The notes below the pieces were generated by a model that was not told the DNA's origin, did not search any database, and saw nothing but the letters and a program-made list of their open reading frames with translations. This document shows, one piece after another, positions 1,831-12,296 of a stretch of 64,000 nt of DNA. The stretch is from Psychrobacter glacincola (lineage in GTDB: Bacteria > Pseudomonadota > Gammaproteobacteria > Pseudomonadales > Moraxellaceae). The first letter of the stretch is position 1. Every line of letters starts with the position of its first letter. The stretch spans positions 124,001 through 188,000 of the forward strand of contig NZ_CAJGZH010000002.1 of the NCBI RefSeq assembly GCF_904846075.1, in the 5' to 3' direction. Made by a program: the position numbers and the translations under genes.

Positions 1831-1911
1831 GATATATATTTTATATTGGGCTGACTATATTTATAGTGTCTTGGCTTTTAACTTTCAATATCTATTTTTT
1901 TGAGGAAAACT

Positions 1912-2910
1912 ATGTTCACAGATAAAACCATTTTAATTACAGGTGGTACAGGCTCATTTGGAAATACATTCGTACCAATGACTTTAGCTAAATATAATCC
2001 AAAGAAAATAATAATTTTCTCACGTGATGAGATGAAACAGTGGGATATGGCCAAAAATTTTGAAAATGATGATAGGGTTCGTTTTTTCATCGGTGATGTT
2101 CGTGATAAAGAACGTTTATACCGCGCTTTAGATGATGTGGATTATGTAGTTCATGCTGCTGCAACCAAAATTGTTCCTACGGCTGAATACAATCCATTTG
2201 AATGCGTGAAAACGAATATTAACGGGGCAATGAATTTAATCGATGCTTGTATCGATAAGGGTGTTAAAGGGGTTGTTGCGCTATCTACTGATAAGGCCAG
2301 TAGCCCTATTAACTTATATGGTGCAACTAAGTTAGCTTCTGACAAGCTTTTCGTCGCAGGCAACTCATACTCTGGTCAGCATGGTACTAAGTTCTCAGTG
2401 GTGCGTTATGGTAATGTAATGGGCTCACGTGGTTCAGTAATTCCTTTCTTTATGTCTATAAAAGATAAAGGTGTACTGCCAATTACTGATAAACGTATGA
2501 CTCGTTTTATGATTTCATTAGAAGATGGTGTTGAGCTGGTTTGGCATGCTTTCGAAGATATGATTGGAGGTGAAATCTATGTTAAGAAGATTCCATCAAT
2601 GAAAATGATTGACTTAGCTCGCGTCGTCGCACCAGAAGCAAAGCAAGACGTTATAGGTATTCGTCCAGGTGAGAAGCTGCATGAGCAAATGATTAGTGCA
2701 GAAGACGCTTATTATACTTACGAGTATTTAGAGCACTTCAAAATATTGCCAACTATTAATGGATGGGCGACTGACCCTGCTCGTATCAAAGATGGTAAAC
2801 GTGTTCCTGAAGGATTCGTTTATGCCAGTGACAATAATACTGAGTGGATGAGCGATGAACAACTTCAAGAATGGATAGAAACCAACCGTGAAAAAATCGG
2901 GAGCATCTAA
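1912..2910 (+). CDS. pseB: UDP-N-acetylglucosamine 4,6-dehydratase (inverting), PseB
   Basis: First step of pseudaminic acid synthesis: UDP-GlcNAc is converted to UDP-2-acetamido-2,6-dideoxy-L-arabino-4-hexulose. The 332-residue protein is an extended short-chain dehydrogenase. It has the NAD(P)-binding GGTGSFG at residues 11-17, STDKA at 125-129 carrying the Asp/Lys pair typical of PseB/FlaA1 dehydratases, and Y136-x3-K140. I chose ATG 1912, which has GAGG six bases upstream; a TTG at 1900 in the same frame has no such site. The stop codon directly abuts the pseC start, so the two are co-translated. It is first in the plus-strand operon and intact. Confidence 0.95.
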   Translation: MFTDKTILITGGTGSFGNTFVPMTLAKYNPKKIIIFSRDEMKQWDMAKNFENDDRVRFFIGDVRDKERLYRALDDVDYVVHAAATKIVPTAEYNPFECVKTNINGAMNLIDACIDKGVKGVVALSTDKASSPINLYGATKLASDKLFVAGNSYSGQHGTKFSVVRYGNVMGSRGSVIPFFMSIKDKGVLPITDKRMTRFMISLEDGVELVWHAFEDMIGGEIYVKKIPSMKMIDLARVVAPEAKQDVIGIRPGEKLHEQMISAEDAYYTYEYLEHFKILPTINGWATDPARIKDGKRVPEGFVYASDNNTEWMSDEQLQEWIETNREKIGSI

Positions 2911-4074
2911 ATGATTCCTTATGGTCGCCAAGATATTAGCCAACAAGATATTGATGTAGTAGTCGAGGTATTAAAATCTGATTTTTTAACTCAGGGACCA
3001 AAAGTCTCAGCATTTGAAGAATCAGTAGTGGATGCTTGTAATGCAAAGTATGGCGTGGCAGTTAATAGCGCCACATCTGCACTACACATTGCTTGCCTAG
3101 CATTAGGTTTAGGTAAAGATGATTGGTTGTGGACAACGCCCAATACGTTTGTGGCCTCTGCCAATTGTGGTTTGTACTGTGGTGCCCAAGTGGACTTCAT
3201 TGATATCGATCCTCATACCTACAATCTATGTGTTAAAGCATTGCAAGACAAGCTTATTATTGCAGAGAAAGAAGGTAAACTCCCTAAAGTCGTCGTTCCT
3301 GTACACTTTAGTGGTCAGCCTTGTGATATGGCCGCTATTTATGCTTTATCACAAATGTATGGGTTTAAAGTTATTGAAGATGCCTCTCACGGTATTGGTG
3401 GTAAGTATAAGGATGAACCTATTGGCAATTGTCAATACAGTGACATTACCGTATTTAGCTTCCATCCTGTAAAAATTATTACTACTGCTGAAGGTGGCAT
3501 GGCGGTTACTAATGATCCTAAATTAGCAGAGCGGTTAAATCTTCTACGAAGTCATGGTATTACTCGTGATGAAAATTTGATGACTAAGCCGGCTGATGGT
3601 CCTTGGTATTATCAGCAAATGGAGCTTGGTTACAATTACCGTATGACGGATATGCAAGCTGCCCTAGGTGTTTCTCAAATGCAACGTCTAGATGAATATG
3701 TTGCTAAACGCCATGAGCTTGCTGAGCGTTATAATGAGTTACTTAAAGATTTGCCTATTACACTGCCTTGGCAGAGTGATGATAGCTACTCAGGTCTGCA
3801 TTTATATGTGATTCGATTGCAGTTAGATAAAATATCTAAAACTCAGCTTGAAGTATTTAATGGTATGCGTGAAGCGGGTATCTTAGTGAACCTTCACTAT
3901 ATTCCCATACATCTACAACCTTATTATCAAGAGTTAGGTTTTGAAGCAGGACAGTTTCCTGAAGCTGAGCAGTATTATAAAGAAGCTATTAGCTTGCCTA
4001 TGTTTCCAACATTATCATATGAACAGCAGCAAGAAGTAGTGGCGAATCTTAAGAAGCTGCTTTTAAAAAACTAA
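2911..4074 (+). CDS. pseC: UDP-4-amino-4,6-dideoxy-N-acetyl-beta-L-altrosamine transaminase, PseC
   Basis: A DegT/DnrJ/EryC1 family PLP aminotransferase that aminates C4 of the PseB product with glutamate as donor. The protein has 387 residues, normal for the family. Visible marks are the substrate loop SDFLTQGP near the N terminus, EDASHG at about 156-161 and the PLP lysine K188 in FSFHPVK followed by ITTAEGG. It begins at the base after the pseB stop, which implies translational coupling. The gene is intact. Order and context (pseB upstream, pseG/H/I downstream) support PseC over other sugar aminotransferases of the same fold. Confidence 0.94.
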   Translation: MIPYGRQDISQQDIDVVVEVLKSDFLTQGPKVSAFEESVVDACNAKYGVAVNSATSALHIACLALGLGKDDWLWTTPNTFVASANCGLYCGAQVDFIDIDPHTYNLCVKALQDKLIIAEKEGKLPKVVVPVHFSGQPCDMAAIYALSQMYGFKVIEDASHGIGGKYKDEPIGNCQYSDITVFSFHPVKIITTAEGGMAVTNDPKLAERLNLLRSHGITRDENLMTKPADGPWYYQQMELGYNYRMTDMQAALGVSQMQRLDEYVAKRHELAERYNELLKDLPITLPWQSDDSYSGLHLYVIRLQLDKISKTQLEVFNGMREAGILVNLHYIPIHLQPYYQELGFEAGQFPEAEQYYKEAISLPMFPTLSYEQQQEVVANLKKLLLKN

Positions 4075-4134
4075 GAGACGTAAGCTCGTCTTAAGTAAGA
4101 TTACATTTAATAATAAGAGATATGGGCTTCTTAT

Positions 4135-5020
4135 ATGCTTAAAAAAATACTCGCTTAAAGATTGCTTTAGGGACAGTACAGTTCGGTCTGCCTTATGGAA
4201 TATCTAATAAAAATGGGCAAGTAAGTAGTTCAGAAGTAGGTAAGATTTTAGATTCAGCGCAAGCAAAAGGTGTCCATACATTAGATACTGCAATTGCATA
4301 CGGTAGTAGCGAAAAAGTGCTGGGTGAGCATAACCTTGGCAGTTTTGATATCGTTACTAAATTGCCTTCTATTCCAGAAGATATCTTAGATATCACAGGC
4401 TGGGTTGAAGAGCAAATGACAAGCTCTTTGAATAGGTTAAAAACATCTAAAGTAAATGCTGTACTTCTTCATCGCCCTGAGCAACTCCACTCAGAAATTG
4501 GGGCGAAAATATATGCTGCTCTGAATTCCTTAAAGAGTGGAGGTTTAACAGAGCGTATAGGAATTTCAACTTACTCTCCTAATGAATTTATAAACCTTAG
4601 TAGAAATTTTCACTTTGACTTAATTCAAGTTCCATTTAATGTTTTAGATACAAGATTGCAAGACTCAGGTGCTTTCGATGCATTAACAGCTCAAGATACA
4701 AGCTTGCATGTAAGGTCTATTTTTCTTCAGGGCTTACTATTGATGGAAAAAAAGAACGATCTAGTAAATTTAATCAGTGGTCACGGCTTTGGACAAAGTG
4801 GGAAGAATGGTTAAAGGAAAATAATCTAACCCCTTTAGAAGCATGTATACGTCATGCTTTATCTATGCCTCAGATTGAAAAGGTTGTGGTAGGCGTAGAT
4901 AGTGCCAATCAGTTGCAAGAAATTATAACGGCAGCTGAAGGTAACTTACCTATGCTACCTTCAAGTCTCTTTTGTCATGATGAAAAATTATTAAGCCCCC
5001 ATTTATGGAGTCAACTATGA
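4135..5020 (+). pseudogene. Aldo/keto reductase of the pse locus, broken by two single-base deletions
   Basis: Three consecutive reading frames together encode one aldo/keto-reductase-like protein of about 295 residues. The ATG at 4135 runs into TAA unless one A is added to the A7 run at 4141-4147, after which LKIALGTVQFGLPYG follows. The next frame carries LDTAIAYGSSEKVLGEH and LLHRPEQL, then needs one A in the A7 run at 4747-4753 to continue into WLKENNLTPLEACIRHAL and the end. The TGA overlaps the next start (ATGA at 5017-5020), so the gene once sat tightly in the operon. Reductases of this type occur beside spsF-like genes in nonulosonic acid loci; the substrate is unknown. It is non-functional as written unless the tracts slip. 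Confidence 0.8.
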
Positions 5021-7044
5021 AAACTGTCGCTATCGTTCAGGCCAGGATGGGGTCAACAAGACTTCCCAATAAAGTAATGAAAGAAATTAATGGAACCCCT
5101 ATGATAGAGGTTTTGTTAAAACGCTTGGCTAAATCCGAACAGATTGATCAGATAATTGTAGCTACATCAGTTGATGCGAAAAACGATTTATTAGTAAGAC
5201 ATGTAGAAAGTTTAGGTTATGTCTGTGAAAGAGGTAGTGAGAACGATGTTTTAGAACGCTATTATCAAGCTGCTAAAGCTCATAATGCTGATATAGTTAT
5301 ACGGATAACGGGAGACTGTCCACTTGTCGATGCTAATCTAGTAGATATTGCCATTAATGATTTTAAAGATCATGGAGTTGACTATCTAAGCAATACTAGT
5401 CCAGCGACCTATCCAGATGGTCTAGATATTGAAGTGTTCACTATGAGAGTATTAGAGCGTGCACTAACAGAGACTACATCTTTATTCGATCAAGAGCATG
5501 TTACGCCATATATCAGAAATAGCGGTAAATTTAAGACTCATTCGATTAGCTATACTGAGGATCTGTCGGACTTGCGATGGACCGTTGATGAGCCTGTCGA
5601 TTTTGAGGTGATTTCTAACATTTTTGACCATTTTTCACCTAATATATACTTCAGTTGGTATGAGGTTTATGAGTTGCAAAAACAGAAACCTATGTTATTT
5701 GATAATAATAGAAATATTAAACGTAATGAAGGAGCTAATATGGGCACAGGTCAAAAACTTTGGAAAAGGGCTAAGTCAGTCATTCCTGGCGGGAACATGC
5801 TGCTTTCTAAGCGTGCAGAAATGTTTTTACCAGAGCATTGGCCTGCATACTTTAGTAAAGCGAAAGGTTGCCAAGTTTGGGATTTAGATGGTAACCAATT
5901 TACTGATATGTGTATTATGGGCATAGGAACTAATACACTAGGTTATGGCAACGAAGAAGTAGATGATGCAGTTCGCTCTGTAATTGATCAAGGTAACATG
6001 TCAACATTGAATGCTCCTGAGGAGGTTTACCTAGCTGAGAAGCTAATTGAGCTACATCCTTGGGCGGATATGGTGCGTTTTGCTCGTACAGGCGGAGAGG
6101 CGAATGCGATTGCAATACGTATTGCGAGAGCAGCGTCAGGTAAAGAAAAGGTAGCTGTCTGTGGTTATCACGGTTGGCATGACTGGTATTTATCAGCAAA
6201 CCTTGGAGATTCAGAAAACTTAGCAGGTCACTTATTACCTGGTCTGAGTCCGAAAGGTGTACCTCAAAATCTTAGAGGTACAGTATTTCCCTTTAATTAC
6301 AATAATTTTGAAGAGCTAGAAGCACTAGTCAATAAACATGACATTGGCGTTATAAAAATGGAAGTGGTACGTAATATGGGGCCTGAGAATAATTTTTTAC
6401 ATAAGGTTCGTAAGCTTGCTACTGACAAGAATATAGTGCTTATATTTGATGAGTGTACATCAGGATTCCGTGAGACCTTTGGTGGGATTCATAAGAAGTA
6501 TGGTGTTGAGCCTGATATGGCAATGTTTGGTAAGGCTTTAGGGAATGGCTATGCTGTGACTGCCACGATTGGAAAAAGAGAAGTTATGGAGGCAGCACAG
6601 TCGTCATTTATAAGTAGCACATTCTGGACTGAACGTATAGGCTCTGTAGCTGGGCTAAAAACGTTAGAGGTTATGGAGAAGCTTCAATCATGGGATACCA
6701 TCACTCAAACGGGTCTTAATATTAAAAACAGCTGGCAAAAACTGGCTGATAAGTATGAGCTAGAGATTAGTCAATTTGGACTTCCGGCCTTAACAGGATT
6801 TTCGTTTGCTAGTGAAAAGAACTTATATTACAAAACCTTAGTTACTCAAGAGATGTTAAAGAAAGGCTATCTAGCTAGTAATGTTGTGTATGTATGTACC
6901 GAACATACAAAACCTATTGTTGAAGGTTATATGGAGGCTCTTGATCCTATATTTTCTTTGATAAAAGAGTGTGAACAAGGACGGTCTGTAGAGGGTTTAT
7001 TAAATGGCCCCGTATGCCACAGTGGTTTTAAAAGATTAAATTAA
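5017..7044 (+). CDS. Fused CMP-sugar cytidylyltransferase (SpsF/PseF-like) and class-III aminotransferase (GSA-aminomutase-like)
   Basis: A two-domain protein of 675 residues. Residues 1 to about 230 are a nucleotidyltransferase of the SpsF/NeuA type: VAIVQARMGSTRLP at the N terminus for CTP binding, then ITGDCPLVD. From about 242 it resembles glutamate-1-semialdehyde aminomutase, with ARTGGEANA, DECTSGFR and the PLP lysine near 506 in MFGKALGNG. The first half is the only candidate for the CMP-activating PseF step here; the aminotransferase substrate is unknown. ATG 5017 has GGAG six bases upstream and is preferred over ATG 5005. An internal ATG at 5740, at the domain border, has AAGGAG five bases before it, so a separate aminotransferase may also be made. 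Confidence 0.85.
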   Translation: MKTVAIVQARMGSTRLPNKVMKEINGTPMIEVLLKRLAKSEQIDQIIVATSVDAKNDLLVRHVESLGYVCERGSENDVLERYYQAAKAHNADIVIRITGDCPLVDANLVDIAINDFKDHGVDYLSNTSPATYPDGLDIEVFTMRVLERALTETTSLFDQEHVTPYIRNSGKFKTHSISYTEDLSDLRWTVDEPVDFEVISNIFDHFSPNIYFSWYEVYELQKQKPMLFDNNRNIKRNEGANMGTGQKLWKRAKSVIPGGNMLLSKRAEMFLPEHWPAYFSKAKGCQVWDLDGNQFTDMCIMGIGTNTLGYGNEEVDDAVRSVIDQGNMSTLNAPEEVYLAEKLIELHPWADMVRFARTGGEANAIAIRIARAASGKEKVAVCGYHGWHDWYLSANLGDSENLAGHLLPGLSPKGVPQNLRGTVFPFNYNNFEELEALVNKHDIGVIKMEVVRNMGPENNFLHKVRKLATDKNIVLIFDECTSGFRETFGGIHKKYGVEPDMAMFGKALGNGYAVTATIGKREVMEAAQSSFISSTFWTERIGSVAGLKTLEVMEKLQSWDTITQTGLNIKNSWQKLADKYELEISQFGLPALTGFSFASEKNLYYKTLVTQEMLKKGYLASNVVYVCTEHTKPIVEGYMEALDPIFSLIKECEQGRSVEGLLNGPVCHSGFKRLN

Positions 7045-7046
7045 AT

Positions 7047-8158
7047 ATGAATATAGTCTTCCGCTGTGACGCCTCTATTCAAATAGGTACTGGCCACGTT
7101 ATGCGTTGCTTAACCCTTGCTGATGAGTTAGCGCATCAGGGTGCTAAGTGCCATTTTATATGTCGTGAGCATGAGGGTCACCTGATAAAGCTTATCGCTC
7201 AAAAAGGTTATGACACTTATAAGCTTGAGGTAGAAAGTCAGGATATCTTTAATAAAAAAAACGATAACGAGCCGGTGCTATTCCACTCTAAATGGTTAGG
7301 ATCTACTCAAGAGGAAGATGCCAGGCAAACCAAAGAGATCATTAAAACATTACAACCGGAATGGCTGGTTATTGACCACTACGCCCTAGATAGTTATTGG
7401 GAGAAAAAGCTTAGACCTCATTACAATAATATTCTAGTGATTGACGATTTGGCAGATAGAAAGCATGATTGCGAAGTATTAATTGATCAAACATTTGGTC
7501 GTGATGAGCAAGACTATCATAACTTAGCTCCTAATCACTGCGAAATTTTATGTGGAACTACCTATGCGCTACTACGCCCAGAGTTTTCTAAATGGCGTCA
7601 GTATAGTTTAGAGCGTAGAAAAGATAATAGTTTACAACACGTCTTAATCAACTTAGGTGGTGTAGATAAGGATAATATAACCTCACATATATTGGAATTA
7701 TTGAAAAAGCACCTTTACCTAAATCATGTAAAGTTACGGTGGTTATGGGCTCTACCTCTCCATGGTTAGATGCTGTGACAACTAAAGCTAATCAACTGCC
7801 TTGGTATACTGAAGTTAAAACTGGCGTTTCTAATATGGCTGAGCTCATGGCTAACAGCGACTTAGCCATTGGTGCTGCTGGATCAACATCCTGGGAGAGA
7901 TGCTGCTTAGGCTTACCTACTATTATGTTAGTTATCGCGGATAATCAAATGGATATTGCAAATAATTTACGCTCTATAAATGCAGTAAAAATTGTGTTAA
8001 ACGATCATAACCTTGCTCAAGTTATCAATGAATATCTATGTGAGTTTATAAAAACGCCAGATAAACTAAAAGCAATGAGTCAGTCTAGCGCAGATGTGCT
8101 AGATGGTAGGGGTGTATATACGGTTATAGAACAGATTAAGAGCTTCCATAATGAATAA
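7047..8158 (+). pseudogene. pseG: UDP-2,4-diacetamido-2,4,6-trideoxy-beta-L-altropyranose hydrolase PseG, one frameshift
   Basis: PseG removes UDP from the PseH product to free the hexose for condensation by PseI. The N-terminal part has the glycine-rich FRCDASIQIGTGHVMRC start typical of this GT-B-like hydrolase. The C-terminal part in another frame has VVMGSTSPWLDAV and IGAAGSTSWERC. The frames join if one A is added to the A5 run at 7704-7708, giving LLKKAPLPKS and a protein of about 370 residues. It starts two bases after the fusion gene and overlaps pseH by 8 bases. With the deletion the translated protein stops around residue 240 and should be inactive. Confidence 0.85.
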
Positions 8159-8666
8159 ATCTCAGTTGAAACTACGGCCTATGCAGTCGTCTGACCTAGC
8201 ATTGGTGATTAGTTGGAGAAACCATATTGATATTCGTAGATATATGTATACCCAGCATGAGATTTCCTTAACTGAGCACACAAATTGGTTTAATAAGGTT
8301 TCTAAAGATAGTAGCTATAGCCTTTTAATCTTTGAATTAGATAATGAACCTCTAGGTTTTGTAAATATTCATCGAATCGCTCAACGTGGTATTGCCGATT
8401 GGGGATTCTATACTTCACCAGATGCTCCCAAAGGAACAGGGTCGAAGCTTGGTGCACAAGCTTTAGACTATGCTTTTAATATATTACGTCTTCATAAGCT
8501 CTGTGGACAAGCCTTAGACTTTAATGAAGCTTCTAGGAAATTTCATAAACGATTAGGTTTTAAAGAAGAGGGTATCCTAGAGCAACATCACTTCGATGGT
8601 AAAAAATATTATGATGTTATTTGCTTTGGTTTACTTGCCCACGAGTATTATCTAATAATTAATTAA
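8151..8666 (+). CDS. pseH: UDP-4-amino-4,6-dideoxy-N-acetyl-beta-L-altrosamine N-acetyltransferase PseH
   Basis: A GNAT-fold acetyltransferase of 171 residues that uses acetyl-CoA to acetylate the 4-amino group made by PseC. The GNAT signature is seen in WGFYTSPDAPKGTGSKLG (acetyl-CoA pyrophosphate loop region), followed by LHKLCGQALDFNEASRKFHKRLGF, the usual motif A/B order with the Asn-x-x-Ser and the LGF ending. It overlaps the end of pseG by 8 bases, consistent with coupled translation. The gene is intact. The assignment to PseH rather than another sugar N-acetyltransferase rests on context. Confidence 0.9.
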   Translation: MNKSQLKLRPMQSSDLALVISWRNHIDIRRYMYTQHEISLTEHTNWFNKVSKDSSYSLLIFELDNEPLGFVNIHRIAQRGIADWGFYTSPDAPKGTGSKLGAQALDYAFNILRLHKLCGQALDFNEASRKFHKRLGFKEEGILEQHHFDGKKYYDVICFGLLAHEYYLIIN

Positions 8667-8682
8667 TAATGAGAATTAAATT

Positions 8683-9712
8683 ATGTCTAATATCCCTAGT
8701 ATAAATATTGCAGGACGTAGGATCGCAACTGATGCTGCCCCTTATATCATTGCAGAGCTCTCTGCTAATCATAATGGCAGCTTTGATACTGCTTTAGAAA
8801 TTATCAATCAGGCCAAAACCTCAGGTGCTGATGCGATAAAATTACAAACTTATACTGCTGACACCATCACATTAGACAGTGATTCTGAAGATTTCAAAAT
8901 TCATGGTGGGTTATGGGACGGCGAGACTCTATATAGCCTTTATGAGAAAGCTCATATGCCATGGGAATGGCATAAGCCTTTATTTGAATATGCTCGTGAA
9001 TTAGATATTACTATGTTTAGCTCGCCTTTTGATAATACAGCTGTAGATCTGTTAGAAGACTTGAATGCTCCAGCATATAAAATTGCCTCTTTTGAAGCTA
9101 TTGACTTACCCTTAATTCGATATGTGGCAAGTACTGGTAAACCAATGATTATATCGACTGGTATGGCCGATGACAAAGAGATACAAGAAGCAATTGATGC
9201 CGCACGATCGGGGGCTGTAAAGAATTGGCTATCTTACACTGTGTTAGTGGTTATCCTGCTCCCGCGGGAGATATCTGCGTACTCTCTTAGACATGAGAGA
9301 GCGTTTCGGGTTAGTAACGGGTTTGTCCGATCACACCATTGACAACACAACGGCAATTACTAGTGTGGCGTTAGGTGCTTCAATTATTGAAAAGCATTTT
9401 ACTTTAGATCGTAACGGCGGTGGTCCTGACGATAGTTTCTCACTTGAGCCTGAGGATTTAGTTGCTTTATGTCGTGATAGTAAAACAGCTTGGCAAGCAT
9501 TTGGTTCAGTCAACTATGGCCGTAAACGTAGTGAGCAAGCAAACGTGAAATTCCGTCGCTCATTGTACTTTGTAAAAGATTTAAAAGCGGGTGATATCAT
9601 TACTGAAGATGCTATACGCAGTGTACGCCCTGGTTTCGGTCTTGCTCCTAAGTTCTATGATAAGATTGTTGGGAAGGTGGTTATAGAGGATATAAGGAAG
9701 AACACCTGTTAG
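8683..9712 (+). pseudogene. pseI: Pseudaminic acid synthase PseI, broken by at least two single-base deletions
   Basis: PseI condenses the 6-deoxy-diacetamido-hexose with phosphoenolpyruvate (NeuB family). The first frame has [32 protein letters not shown] and IISTGMA. One G is missing in the G-run at 9210-9214; the next frame reads [12 protein letters not shown]. Another base is missing near 9270-9274, after which [24 protein letters not shown] and VRPGFGLAPKFYD continue. The C-terminal SAF domain ends oddly at DIRKNTC. Shifting frame near 9695-9702 would give TPVSLTSFR and a stop at 9731, a more usual ending, so a third indel is possible. The restored length is near 349 residues, normal for NeuB/PseI. 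Confidence 0.86.
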
Positions 9713-11523: not shown

Positions 11524-12296
11524 TTATTTAAAAGCTATCTCTTTAGCTAATAATGCTTTTTTCGTTTGCTGAGCAACTCTCTTTAACTCCCTACGTACTT
11601 TATTGAACCCTGTTGTTTTATTAGCTTTCATTCTATCTTTACGTTCATTGATGAGTAAGCTTGGTAATAATAAGTCTGCTTCTGGGCCAGCTAAAATTAT
11701 CTCCTGTATGCACAAAGCGGGCTTCATTTGGTATATCGGCTCATCATAATTTAGTATAAACTCTTCGAAAATTAGTTCATCTAAGGGGCGTAAAATTGTT
11801 TTATTTATATAATTAAAAAAAGTGTGAGATCCTTTCAGAGAGAGTATATAGCCACCAGTACCTAAGTGTTTACTTTTTAATTGGTGCAACTGTCTTGTTA
11901 CTCCCTGTATGTTATAAGATTTCTTAGCATAGATAATTTTTTAAGAACAGTTTCAATCTTAATAATATTCCACTCAGACTTAATCCAAGTAGATCTGTTC
12001 AGTAATTCTTCAGCGTCTTCACCTAGATAGATATCATCTTCAAAGATAGTAACGTAAGGGATGTTTTCGTCAATCGTCTTTTTCCAGATAGCTACATGAC
12101 TCATCATACAAGCTAGTTCACCTGGAGTTAACTTAGCATCTTTAAGGTTTAAACCTAAATTGTTGGCAAAATCTTTGGCTGTATCTGGAGTTAACGCATC
12201 AAAGAACTCAAAATCTACTTTATATTTACCAAACTCTTCGTTTATATGCTTTCTGCGCTCTACCGCAGATTCTAAACTTATTACGATATTTTTCAT
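11524..12296 (-). pseudogene. Glycosyltransferase family 25 (LPS beta-galactosyltransferase type), one frameshift
   Basis: GT25 enzymes add hexoses to lipooligosaccharide. The first part has the family start NIVISLESAVERRKHI, GELACMMSHVAIWKK and the DxD-like VTIFEDDIYLG. The second part in another frame has GTGGYILSLKGSHTFFNYI and a basic tail with RRELKRVAQQTKK. Adding one base at the short T-run at 11920-11922 (plus strand) joins them as LRKSYNIQGVTRQLHQLKSKHL, giving 257 residues, a normal family length. As written the protein ends at residue 132, after the donor-binding half, and is probably inactive. It sits 10 bases after a second, intact GT25 gene. Confidence 0.82.

Follow-up and report, generated by a model that had tools for sequence, protein, structure and literature searches.

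In a 64,000-nucleotide stretch of Psychrobacter glacincola DNA (contig NZ_CAJGZH010000002.1, positions 124,001 to 188,000; here called the window), an operon for pseudaminic acid (Pse) raises the question of how its sugar is activated with CMP when the set has no separate gene for PseF, and what role is played by the class III aminotransferase that is encoded in the usual position of that gene. The element under study is a single open reading frame (ORF) at 5005..7044, which joins an SpsF-type cytidylyltransferase to this aminotransferase; like all other features of the window given below, it lies on the forward strand. Our reading, which we favor with somewhat better than even confidence, is that the product of the operon is an 8-amino derivative of Pse activated with CMP.

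A cytidylyltransferase-aminotransferase fusion occupies the position of pseF

The initial annotation of this locus held that the pse set has no separate PseF, and named a canonical pseF elsewhere in the genome as a refutation of its reading. Such a gene was ruled out by whole-genome searches with two models. TIGR03584 (PseF), whose cut-off is 205.7 bits, matched kdsB at 36.7 bits, the fusion at 29.4 bits, and nothing else, and PF02348 has two places in the genome, the fusion ORF and kdsB, the latter identified by TIGR00466 (241 bits, cut-off 155). The usual pseF position is occupied by the cytidylyltransferase-aminotransferase fusion.

The same question can be put to related genomes. We surveyed 195 genomes, that of the window included, of which 36 have a PseI over the cut-off (the window's own fragmented PseI is not counted). 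Twenty-five of these carry a PseF over the cut-off somewhere in the genome, and five (G190, G064, G007, G049, and G156) a PseF-like gene of 170 to 180 bits. Four more relatives with PseI (G090, G139, G111, and G115) carry the fusion, and they too are without PseF, since none of their PseF-like matches lies above about 52 bits. The window's fusion is 98, 76, and 71% identical to those of G090, G139, and G111, respectively, and 38% identical to that of G115. The last two, G184 and G048, have neither PseF nor this fusion; between PseC and PseG they encode a fusion of a cytidylyltransferase to an aldo/keto reductase (AKR) of 543 or 542 amino acids (aa), followed by a short-chain dehydrogenase/reductase (SDR) of family PF13561. 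An origin of the fusion as an artefact of neighboring indels was rejected, given that G090, G139, and G111 each encode it in one uninterrupted ORF and that no indel between the window and G090 falls inside it.

Domains and fold of the fusion

From 5005, one unbroken frame of 679 aa runs to 7044. A start at 5017, giving 675 aa, is favored because the ATG at this position and the stop codon of the AKR overlap within the sequence ATGA, 5017-5020 (with the AKR frame as in G090). Residues 1-233 (5017..5715) form the cytidylyltransferase domain, with PF02348 (CTP_transf_3) matching residues 4-169 at 119.3 bits (cut-off 22.6); a linker, RNEGANMG, follows at 5722..5745, and residues 242-675 (5740..7041) form the aminotransferase domain, with PF00202 (Aminotran_3) matching residues 276-602 at 137.6 bits (cut-off 30.5). 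Alignment with glutamate-semialdehyde (GSA) aminomutase identifies K506 as the lysine that binds pyridoxal phosphate (PLP). In an alignment of 79 fusions, which excludes the near-copy in G090, K506, D478, E479, R96, D100, and D137 are kept in all sequences, and the cytidylyltransferase residues R10 and K19 in 78. The description of the gene as an SpsF-like domain fused to a GSA-aminomutase-like enzyme with its PLP lysine therefore stands, on an intact ORF with both domains.

A structure model based on 47 sequences (46 fetched ones plus that of the window; mean pLDDT 86.5, pTM 0.64) agrees with this division. Its first part fits the cytidylyltransferase 6oew (TM score by target 0.92, root mean square deviation 1.5, 33% identity), and its second part is predicted to resemble FumI, the best match, and GSA aminomutases, at 22 to 27% identity. 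The reacting end of the FumI substrate, CH3-C(=O)/CH3-CH(NH2), resembles C8-C9 of Pse. The aminotransferase shares its fold and PLP lysine with both FumI and HemL, but it is not the HemL of the genome: the fusion reaches 189.1 bits with TIGR00713 (HemL), against a cut-off of 527.3, and a separate hemL-type gene is found at a PF00202 place, C1:386831, where the stretch scanned, a partial one, scores 580 bits with PRK00062 (cut-off 398) and 522 bits with TIGR00713, slightly below 527.

These observations bear on the simplest alternative, namely, that the product is plain CMP-Pse and that the aminotransferase half has a structural or regulatory role or serves another pathway. Plain Pse is indeed reported from Psychrobacter arcticus and other bacteria (PMC7281560). 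We nevertheless consider this alternative improbable, since the PLP lysine and other active-site residues are invariant in all 79 fusions, the fused state has been gained or lost at least three times in the tree described below, and a hemL-type gene is present separately.

The neighboring aldo/keto reductase and its counterpart in EpaA

The initial annotation omitted the AKR encoded at 4135..5020, which is key to the position of the amine. In the window this gene is frameshifted, with PF00248 matching its longest fragment; in G090 it is a single ORF of 295 aa (PF00248, 107 bits), and no further AKR place of this kind was found in the window's genome at an E value of ≤0.001. The proposed cassette, an AKR beside the aminotransferase, is hence intact in G090 and frameshifted in the window. 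Counted by hidden Markov model, an AKR is present in 73 of 78 fused loci, although it is not adjacent in all of them.

A function for such an AKR is suggested by prophages of Acinetobacter baumannii, in which EpaA (CTP_transf_3 plus AKR) and EpaB (a PF13561 SDR) are reported to convert Pse into 8-epi-Pse in the capsule, as seen by nuclear magnetic resonance (PMC12053666); this product puts the site of action of such a pair at C8. The two systems are alike in that a PF02348 cytidylyltransferase, an AKR, and a third enzyme act on Pse, and in that the EpaA-like protein and SDR of G048 and G184 sit where the window has its AKR and fusion. They differ in that EpaA joins the AKR to the cytidylyltransferase and has an SDR as its partner, whereas the AKR of the window is separate and a class III aminotransferase is fused instead; the interval from PseC to PseG contains no SDR, either in the window or in G090. 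An SpsF-AKR fusion encoded after PseC in Vibrio B9-25K2, considered a substitute for the NeuA that its nonulosonic acid (NulO) cluster lacks, is similar in its SpsF-like cytidylyltransferase and also has an AKR, not an aminotransferase, as its partner (PMC7371886).

We compared the AKRs using EpaA-like proteins of the same architecture rather than the sequence of EpaA itself. The G090 AKR scored 108 to 139 bits when compared with the AKR domains of four EpaA-like proteins and 114 to 156 bits when compared with the AKRs of three unfused cassettes, and D51, Y56, K76, and H113 (G090 numbering) were aligned in all seven. On these sequence comparisons, the AKRs of EpaA-like proteins and of aminotransferase cassettes look like one family. 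Because of this likeness, the step common to both arrangements is probably oxidation at C8, after which, by analogy, an SDR would yield the epimer and an aminotransferase the amine.

Two further sets of loci carry EpaA-like genes. Those of G048 (L150, 3806-6236) and G184 (L149, 3641-6069), one of them in the window's genus, are candidate chromosomal loci for 8-epi-Pse. In L012 (Massilia, 5384-9028) and L043 (Chitinophagaceae, 3337-7070), an EpaA-like fusion adjoins a cytidylyltransferase-aminotransferase fusion, giving two SpsF-type domains per cluster. A search of a phage collection for an EpaA-like protein returned three records, none covering 80%.

Gene company of the cassette

In six loci (L021, L025, L030, L044, L061, and L085), the cassette is accompanied by a NulO synthase, with no PseC, PseG, or PseH match between the two; L030 shows no PseB in the stretch covered, and in L085 the cytidylyltransferase and aminotransferase are unfused. 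An extra gene is RmlD-like in all four loci tested (L025, L044, L061, and L085), and the NulO synthases of L021, L025, L044, and L061, again all four tested, fall below both the PseI and the NeuB cut-offs. Locus L047 was left out of this set, as a PseC-like piece of 61 aa lies at the contig edge directly before its AKR. The PseC-less clusters with an RmlD-like gene perhaps make another NulO. The occurrence of the cassette with two backbone gene sets suggests that it is a portable late tailoring unit and not a stand-in for PseC.

Among 41 loci in which PseC and the AKR are near each other (own-genome copies L002 and L003 omitted), 17 have an extra ORF of at least 130 aa between them. Seven extra genes beside the AKR were scanned, two of them from these loci, and comprise five GNAT acyltransferases and two methyltransferases; in L143, the gene scanned lies after the AKR. 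Such acyltransferases could point to another function, in which the AKR and aminotransferase make an amino-acyl or hydroxy-acyl substituent for the amines of Pse and the fused cytidylyltransferase merely replaces PseF. Acylated Pse is known, and a Psychrobacter capsule is reported to contain 5-N-lactoyl-Pse (PMC7281560). This explanation is very unlikely in our view, since it accounts neither for the fusion of the aminotransferase to a CMP-sugar enzyme nor for the swap with an EpaA-like protein and SDR at the same place, and since the window locus has no extra ORF of at least 130 aa between PseC and the AKR.

A second SpsF-like cytidylyltransferase is encoded in six loci (L014, 11683-12417; L025, 11893-12633; L028, 10014-10760; L036, 11862-12623; L089, 11354-12088; L143, 11821-12567). 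These genes form a clade of their own, and each is followed downstream by a PseC-like (DegT-type) aminotransferase.

Proposed pathway and product

Taken in order, the proposed pathway would begin with the known steps of PseB, PseC, PseH, PseG, and PseI, assigned here by family membership, which lead to Pse. The neighboring NAD(P)-dependent AKR would then oxidize the C8 hydroxyl to a ketone, as EpaA suggests, and the class III aminotransferase domain would convert this ketone to an amine. The SpsF-type domain, acting for PseF, very likely activates the sugar with CMP; amination may either precede or follow this transfer, and the physical joining of both domains would channel the aminated sugar into activation. 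The extra amination, or modified NulO, proposed in the initial annotation remains the best reading of the locus, with the sugar itself assigned by analogy.

The logic of this pathway has a parallel in the making of Kdo8N by Shewanella, where the enzymes, KdnA and KdnB among them, oxidize C8, transaminate it, and lead to activation with CMP. That pathway concerns another sugar and uses enzymes from other families. Kdo8N is described in the literature (PMC3210612), and an 8-amino-3,5,7,8,9-pentadeoxynonulosonic acid, with its C8 configuration undetermined, is reported from the O-antigen of Flexibacter maritimus (PMC3210612, PMC4052302). We found no genes assigned to an 8-amino NulO in the parts of the literature available, and the accessible text of the Tenacibaculum maritimum genome paper contains no neuB and nothing on the making of NulO.

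The AKR and aminotransferase might instead aminate the NulO at another carbon, e.g., C4, or act on an earlier intermediate. The position is indeed placed by analogy, and the cassette occurs with two backbone gene sets; however, C8 is the site of action of the related EpaA-EpaB pair (PMC12053666), the amine at C7 already comes from PseC, and the 8-amino sugar is the one that we found reported in nature (PMC3210612). We therefore regard amination elsewhere as rather unlikely.

Amination at C8, the reading that we prefer, has to be weighed against several observations that do not favor it. The available text of PMC12053666 assigns no separate steps to the AKR of EpaA and to EpaB, giving the product of the pair only. 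In the literature as far as it was available, no assay of any cassette enzyme was found, and Psychrobacter polysaccharides are reported with Pse5Ac7Ac and lactoyl-Pse, with no 8-amino sugar in the portion of that report at hand (PMC7281560). The AKR is not adjacent to the fusion in L032 and L042, and L086 and L088 show none despite several kilobases upstream; in the other loci without an AKR, the fusion starts no more than about 140 bases from the end of the locus (L027 and L060) or has 1.5 kb upstream of it (L006). The second SpsF-like gene of six loci means that the fused domain is maybe not the sole CMP-sugar enzyme everywhere, and if the frameshifts in the AKR, pseG, and pseI are real, this strain may have a nonfunctional pathway.

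Mass data from flagellins give weak evidence. The polar flagellin of Aeromonas hydrophila AH-1 is reported to carry a 403-Da residue (oxonium ion at m/z 404.4), some of whose fragments differ by one unit from those of an acetylated Pse (PMC4691044), and A. caviae Sch3 to carry plain Pse at m/z 317.1 (PMC9290775). By the nitrogen rule, a mass of 403 calls for an odd number of nitrogens. A shift of 0.984 Da results from an acetamidino group as well as from an exchange of O for NH. The AH-1 data fit either change, and, with the subgroup of the AH-1 island not stated in the text available, they are a hint only. Moreover, the formula given by the AH-1 authors, in the text available, contains no nitrogen (PMC4691044), and a review lists 373 Da, which is also odd, for A. 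caviae (PMC8625153). In the part accessible of a paper on Shewanella oneidensis flagellin, the sugar is read as Pse with one acetyl group, and neither "aminotransferase" nor "aldo" is mentioned.

Distribution and history of the fusion

The initial annotation took the fusion to be a peculiarity of this locus, whereas it is in fact widespread. Of 86 loci that encode this aminotransferase, 79 have the fusion as a single ORF: four of six from relatives and 75 of 80 from public genomes. The 80 public loci were those most similar to the full fusion among at least 581 relatives, a choice that leans toward fused forms. Of 369 genomes drawn from the class, 12 matched the aminotransferase at an E value of ≤1e-60; all six matches of at least 68% identity, one of them in the own genome, show an open frame of 676 to 686 aa, and the remaining six, 33 to 36% identical, were not sorted as fused or unfused. 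In a draw of 398 genomes from the phylum, 18 matched, among them the own genome and G139. The other matches of at least 49% identity, G577 (71%), G864 (53%), and G894 (49%), are all unfused, and the rest, 33 to 36% identical, were likewise not sorted. According to their record labels, carriers span several bacterial phyla. Full-length homologs of the fusion also lie on plasmids, one of Pseudosulfitobacter (NZ_CP022416.1, 317529-319559, 58% identity) and one of the haloarchaeon Halorussus (NZ_CP100401.1, 174550-176673, 46% identity), which suggests that the fusion crosses domains of life. The phage collection yielded 32 records, none covering 80% of the fusion; the matches listed span the aminotransferase half and little or nothing of the other half.

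The fusion resembles PseF in its operon place and its predicted role in CMP activation, but not in sequence. It scores 29 bits against the PseF cut-off of 205.7, and a tree of cytidylyltransferase domains, 44 in all, sets PseF apart as one separate clade (support 100/99). Outside this clade, the domains of the fusions, the EpaA-like proteins, the unfused partners, and the second SpsF-like genes group together (93/89, a branch that is not starred). The starred branches force at least three changes of the fused label, suggesting that fusion or fission occurred more than once. Traces of the junction are found in unfused genes: RNEG occurs near the C terminus of the unfused cytidylyltransferases in L008, L009, L063, L085, and L089, and the junction methionine corresponds to the start of the unfused aminotransferases in L085 and L089.

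A probable internal start at the domain junction

At the junction, a Shine-Dalgarno (SD)-like AAGGAG at 5729..5734 precedes an ATG at 5740..5742, both placed as the initial annotation had claimed, and this ATG is a candidate start for a free aminotransferase of 434 aa. An ATG is found here in 51 of the 79 aligned fusions. We examined the glycine codon before it in a close set of 34 fusions at least 68% identical to the window's (included) and in a distant set of 45, deriving expected GGA counts from each gene's own glycine codons. In the close set this codon is GGA in 24 of 34 (5.8 expected, z = 8.59), the top of 47 glycine columns, and AGGAG stands directly 5' of the ATG in 20 of 34, versus 3 of 45 in the others. 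Mean codon identity at identical four-fold residues in the close set is 0.29, making shared ancestry a poor explanation of the kept GGA. An uncorrected test for an internal SD site did not separate fusions with the methionine (33 of 51) from those without it (15 of 28).

The internal site may also be an unused relic of the start of a once unfused gene, which we regard as a real but less probable alternative. The unfused aminotransferases of L085 and L089 begin at the matching place; the distant fusions show no GGA signal (15 of 41, 13.3 expected), and the signal is gone when all fusions are thinned at 70% protein identity (9 of 26, 8.1 expected). An unused relic does not sit easily with a codon kept despite such low synonymous identity, nor with its persistence both in the close set thinned to pairs of at most 0.4 synonymous identity (15 of 23, 4.3 expected, z = 5.92) and in all fusions thinned at 75% protein identity (18 of 35, 9.6 expected). 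The excess of GGA is seen in fusions with the ATG (31 of 51, 12.2 expected) and absent in those without a start codon (4 of 17, 4.9 expected). Its restriction to close homologs suggests that the internal start is likely there and not in the family at large. Judging by this synonymous-site signature, a free aminotransferase is probably made as a second product among close homologs, in which an internal ribosome-binding site could raise the aminotransferase above the cytidylyltransferase. The earlier proposal that the internal ATG releases the aminotransferase alone thus gains support in close homologs and finds no signal in distant fusions.

The surrounding pse operon and its frameshifts

The fusion is embedded in a Pse gene set whose members PseB, PseC, PseG, PseH, and PseI are each best matched by their own NCBIfam equivalog, which assigns the operon to the Pse pathway. 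Upstream of the AKR lie pseB (1900..2910; the inverting UDP-GlcNAc 4,6-dehydratase; TIGR03589, 553 bits, cut-off 408) and pseC (2911..4074; the C4 aminotransferase; TIGR03588, 583 bits, cut-off 423.5). Downstream of the fusion follow pseG (7047..8158; the UDP-sugar hydrolase), which is frameshifted and matches TIGR03590 at 253 and 73 bits on two pieces, the N-terminal one exceeding the cut-off of 154, then pseH (8151..8666; the N-acetyltransferase; TIGR03585, 139 bits, cut-off 93), and pseI (8683..9712; the Pse synthase), also frameshifted, with TIGR03586 at 273 and 173 bits on two pieces, both below the cut-off of 340.

In G090, which is 98.3% identical to the window over 13.5 kb with 12 gap openings, the set is whole: PseB, PseC, the AKR (295 aa), the fusion (679 aa), PseG in one ORF of 370 aa, PseH, and an intact PseI (504 bits). 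Compared with it, the window has two one-base differences that disrupt the AKR and one that disrupts pseG, all within runs of A, and pseI carries several indels, not all in runs. These frameshifts are either sequencing errors or decay. Two ORFs at 11524-12296 look split as well.

Implications of the proposed tailoring at C8

The unfused gene order of AKR, pseF, and class III aminotransferase is already known from Aeromonas, whose group I flagellin glycosylation islands are drawn with these three genes between pseC and pseG (PMC7874193). There the genes are separate, and no function is proposed for them in the text available (PMC7874193); the likeness to our cassette is one of gene order and description. 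What is new here is most likely the tailoring of Pse with a new second enzyme, the recurrence of the fusion, and a probable second product in close homologs.

As a tentative generalization, whose chance we put a little short of even, these systems may form a widespread, so far unassigned branch in the synthesis of sialic-acid-like sugars, one that tailors C8. An AKR would make the C8 ketone, from which an SDR would produce the 8-epimer or a class III aminotransferase the 8-amino sugar; SpsF-type enzymes would have been fused separately to either partner in place of PseF, and a conserved ribosome-binding site inside the fused gene would give rise to two proteins in one set of close homologs. 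The swap with the EpaA-like protein and SDR suggests a general rule for tailoring at C8, and the internal start raises the possibility of dual products from one fused gene. The cassette is a concrete candidate for the genes of the 8-amino NulO, a sugar known from the O-antigen of a fish pathogen. If this is true, genomes could be read for a triamino sugar whose genes could now pass as those of plain Pse or as a stray glutamate-semialdehyde aminomutase.

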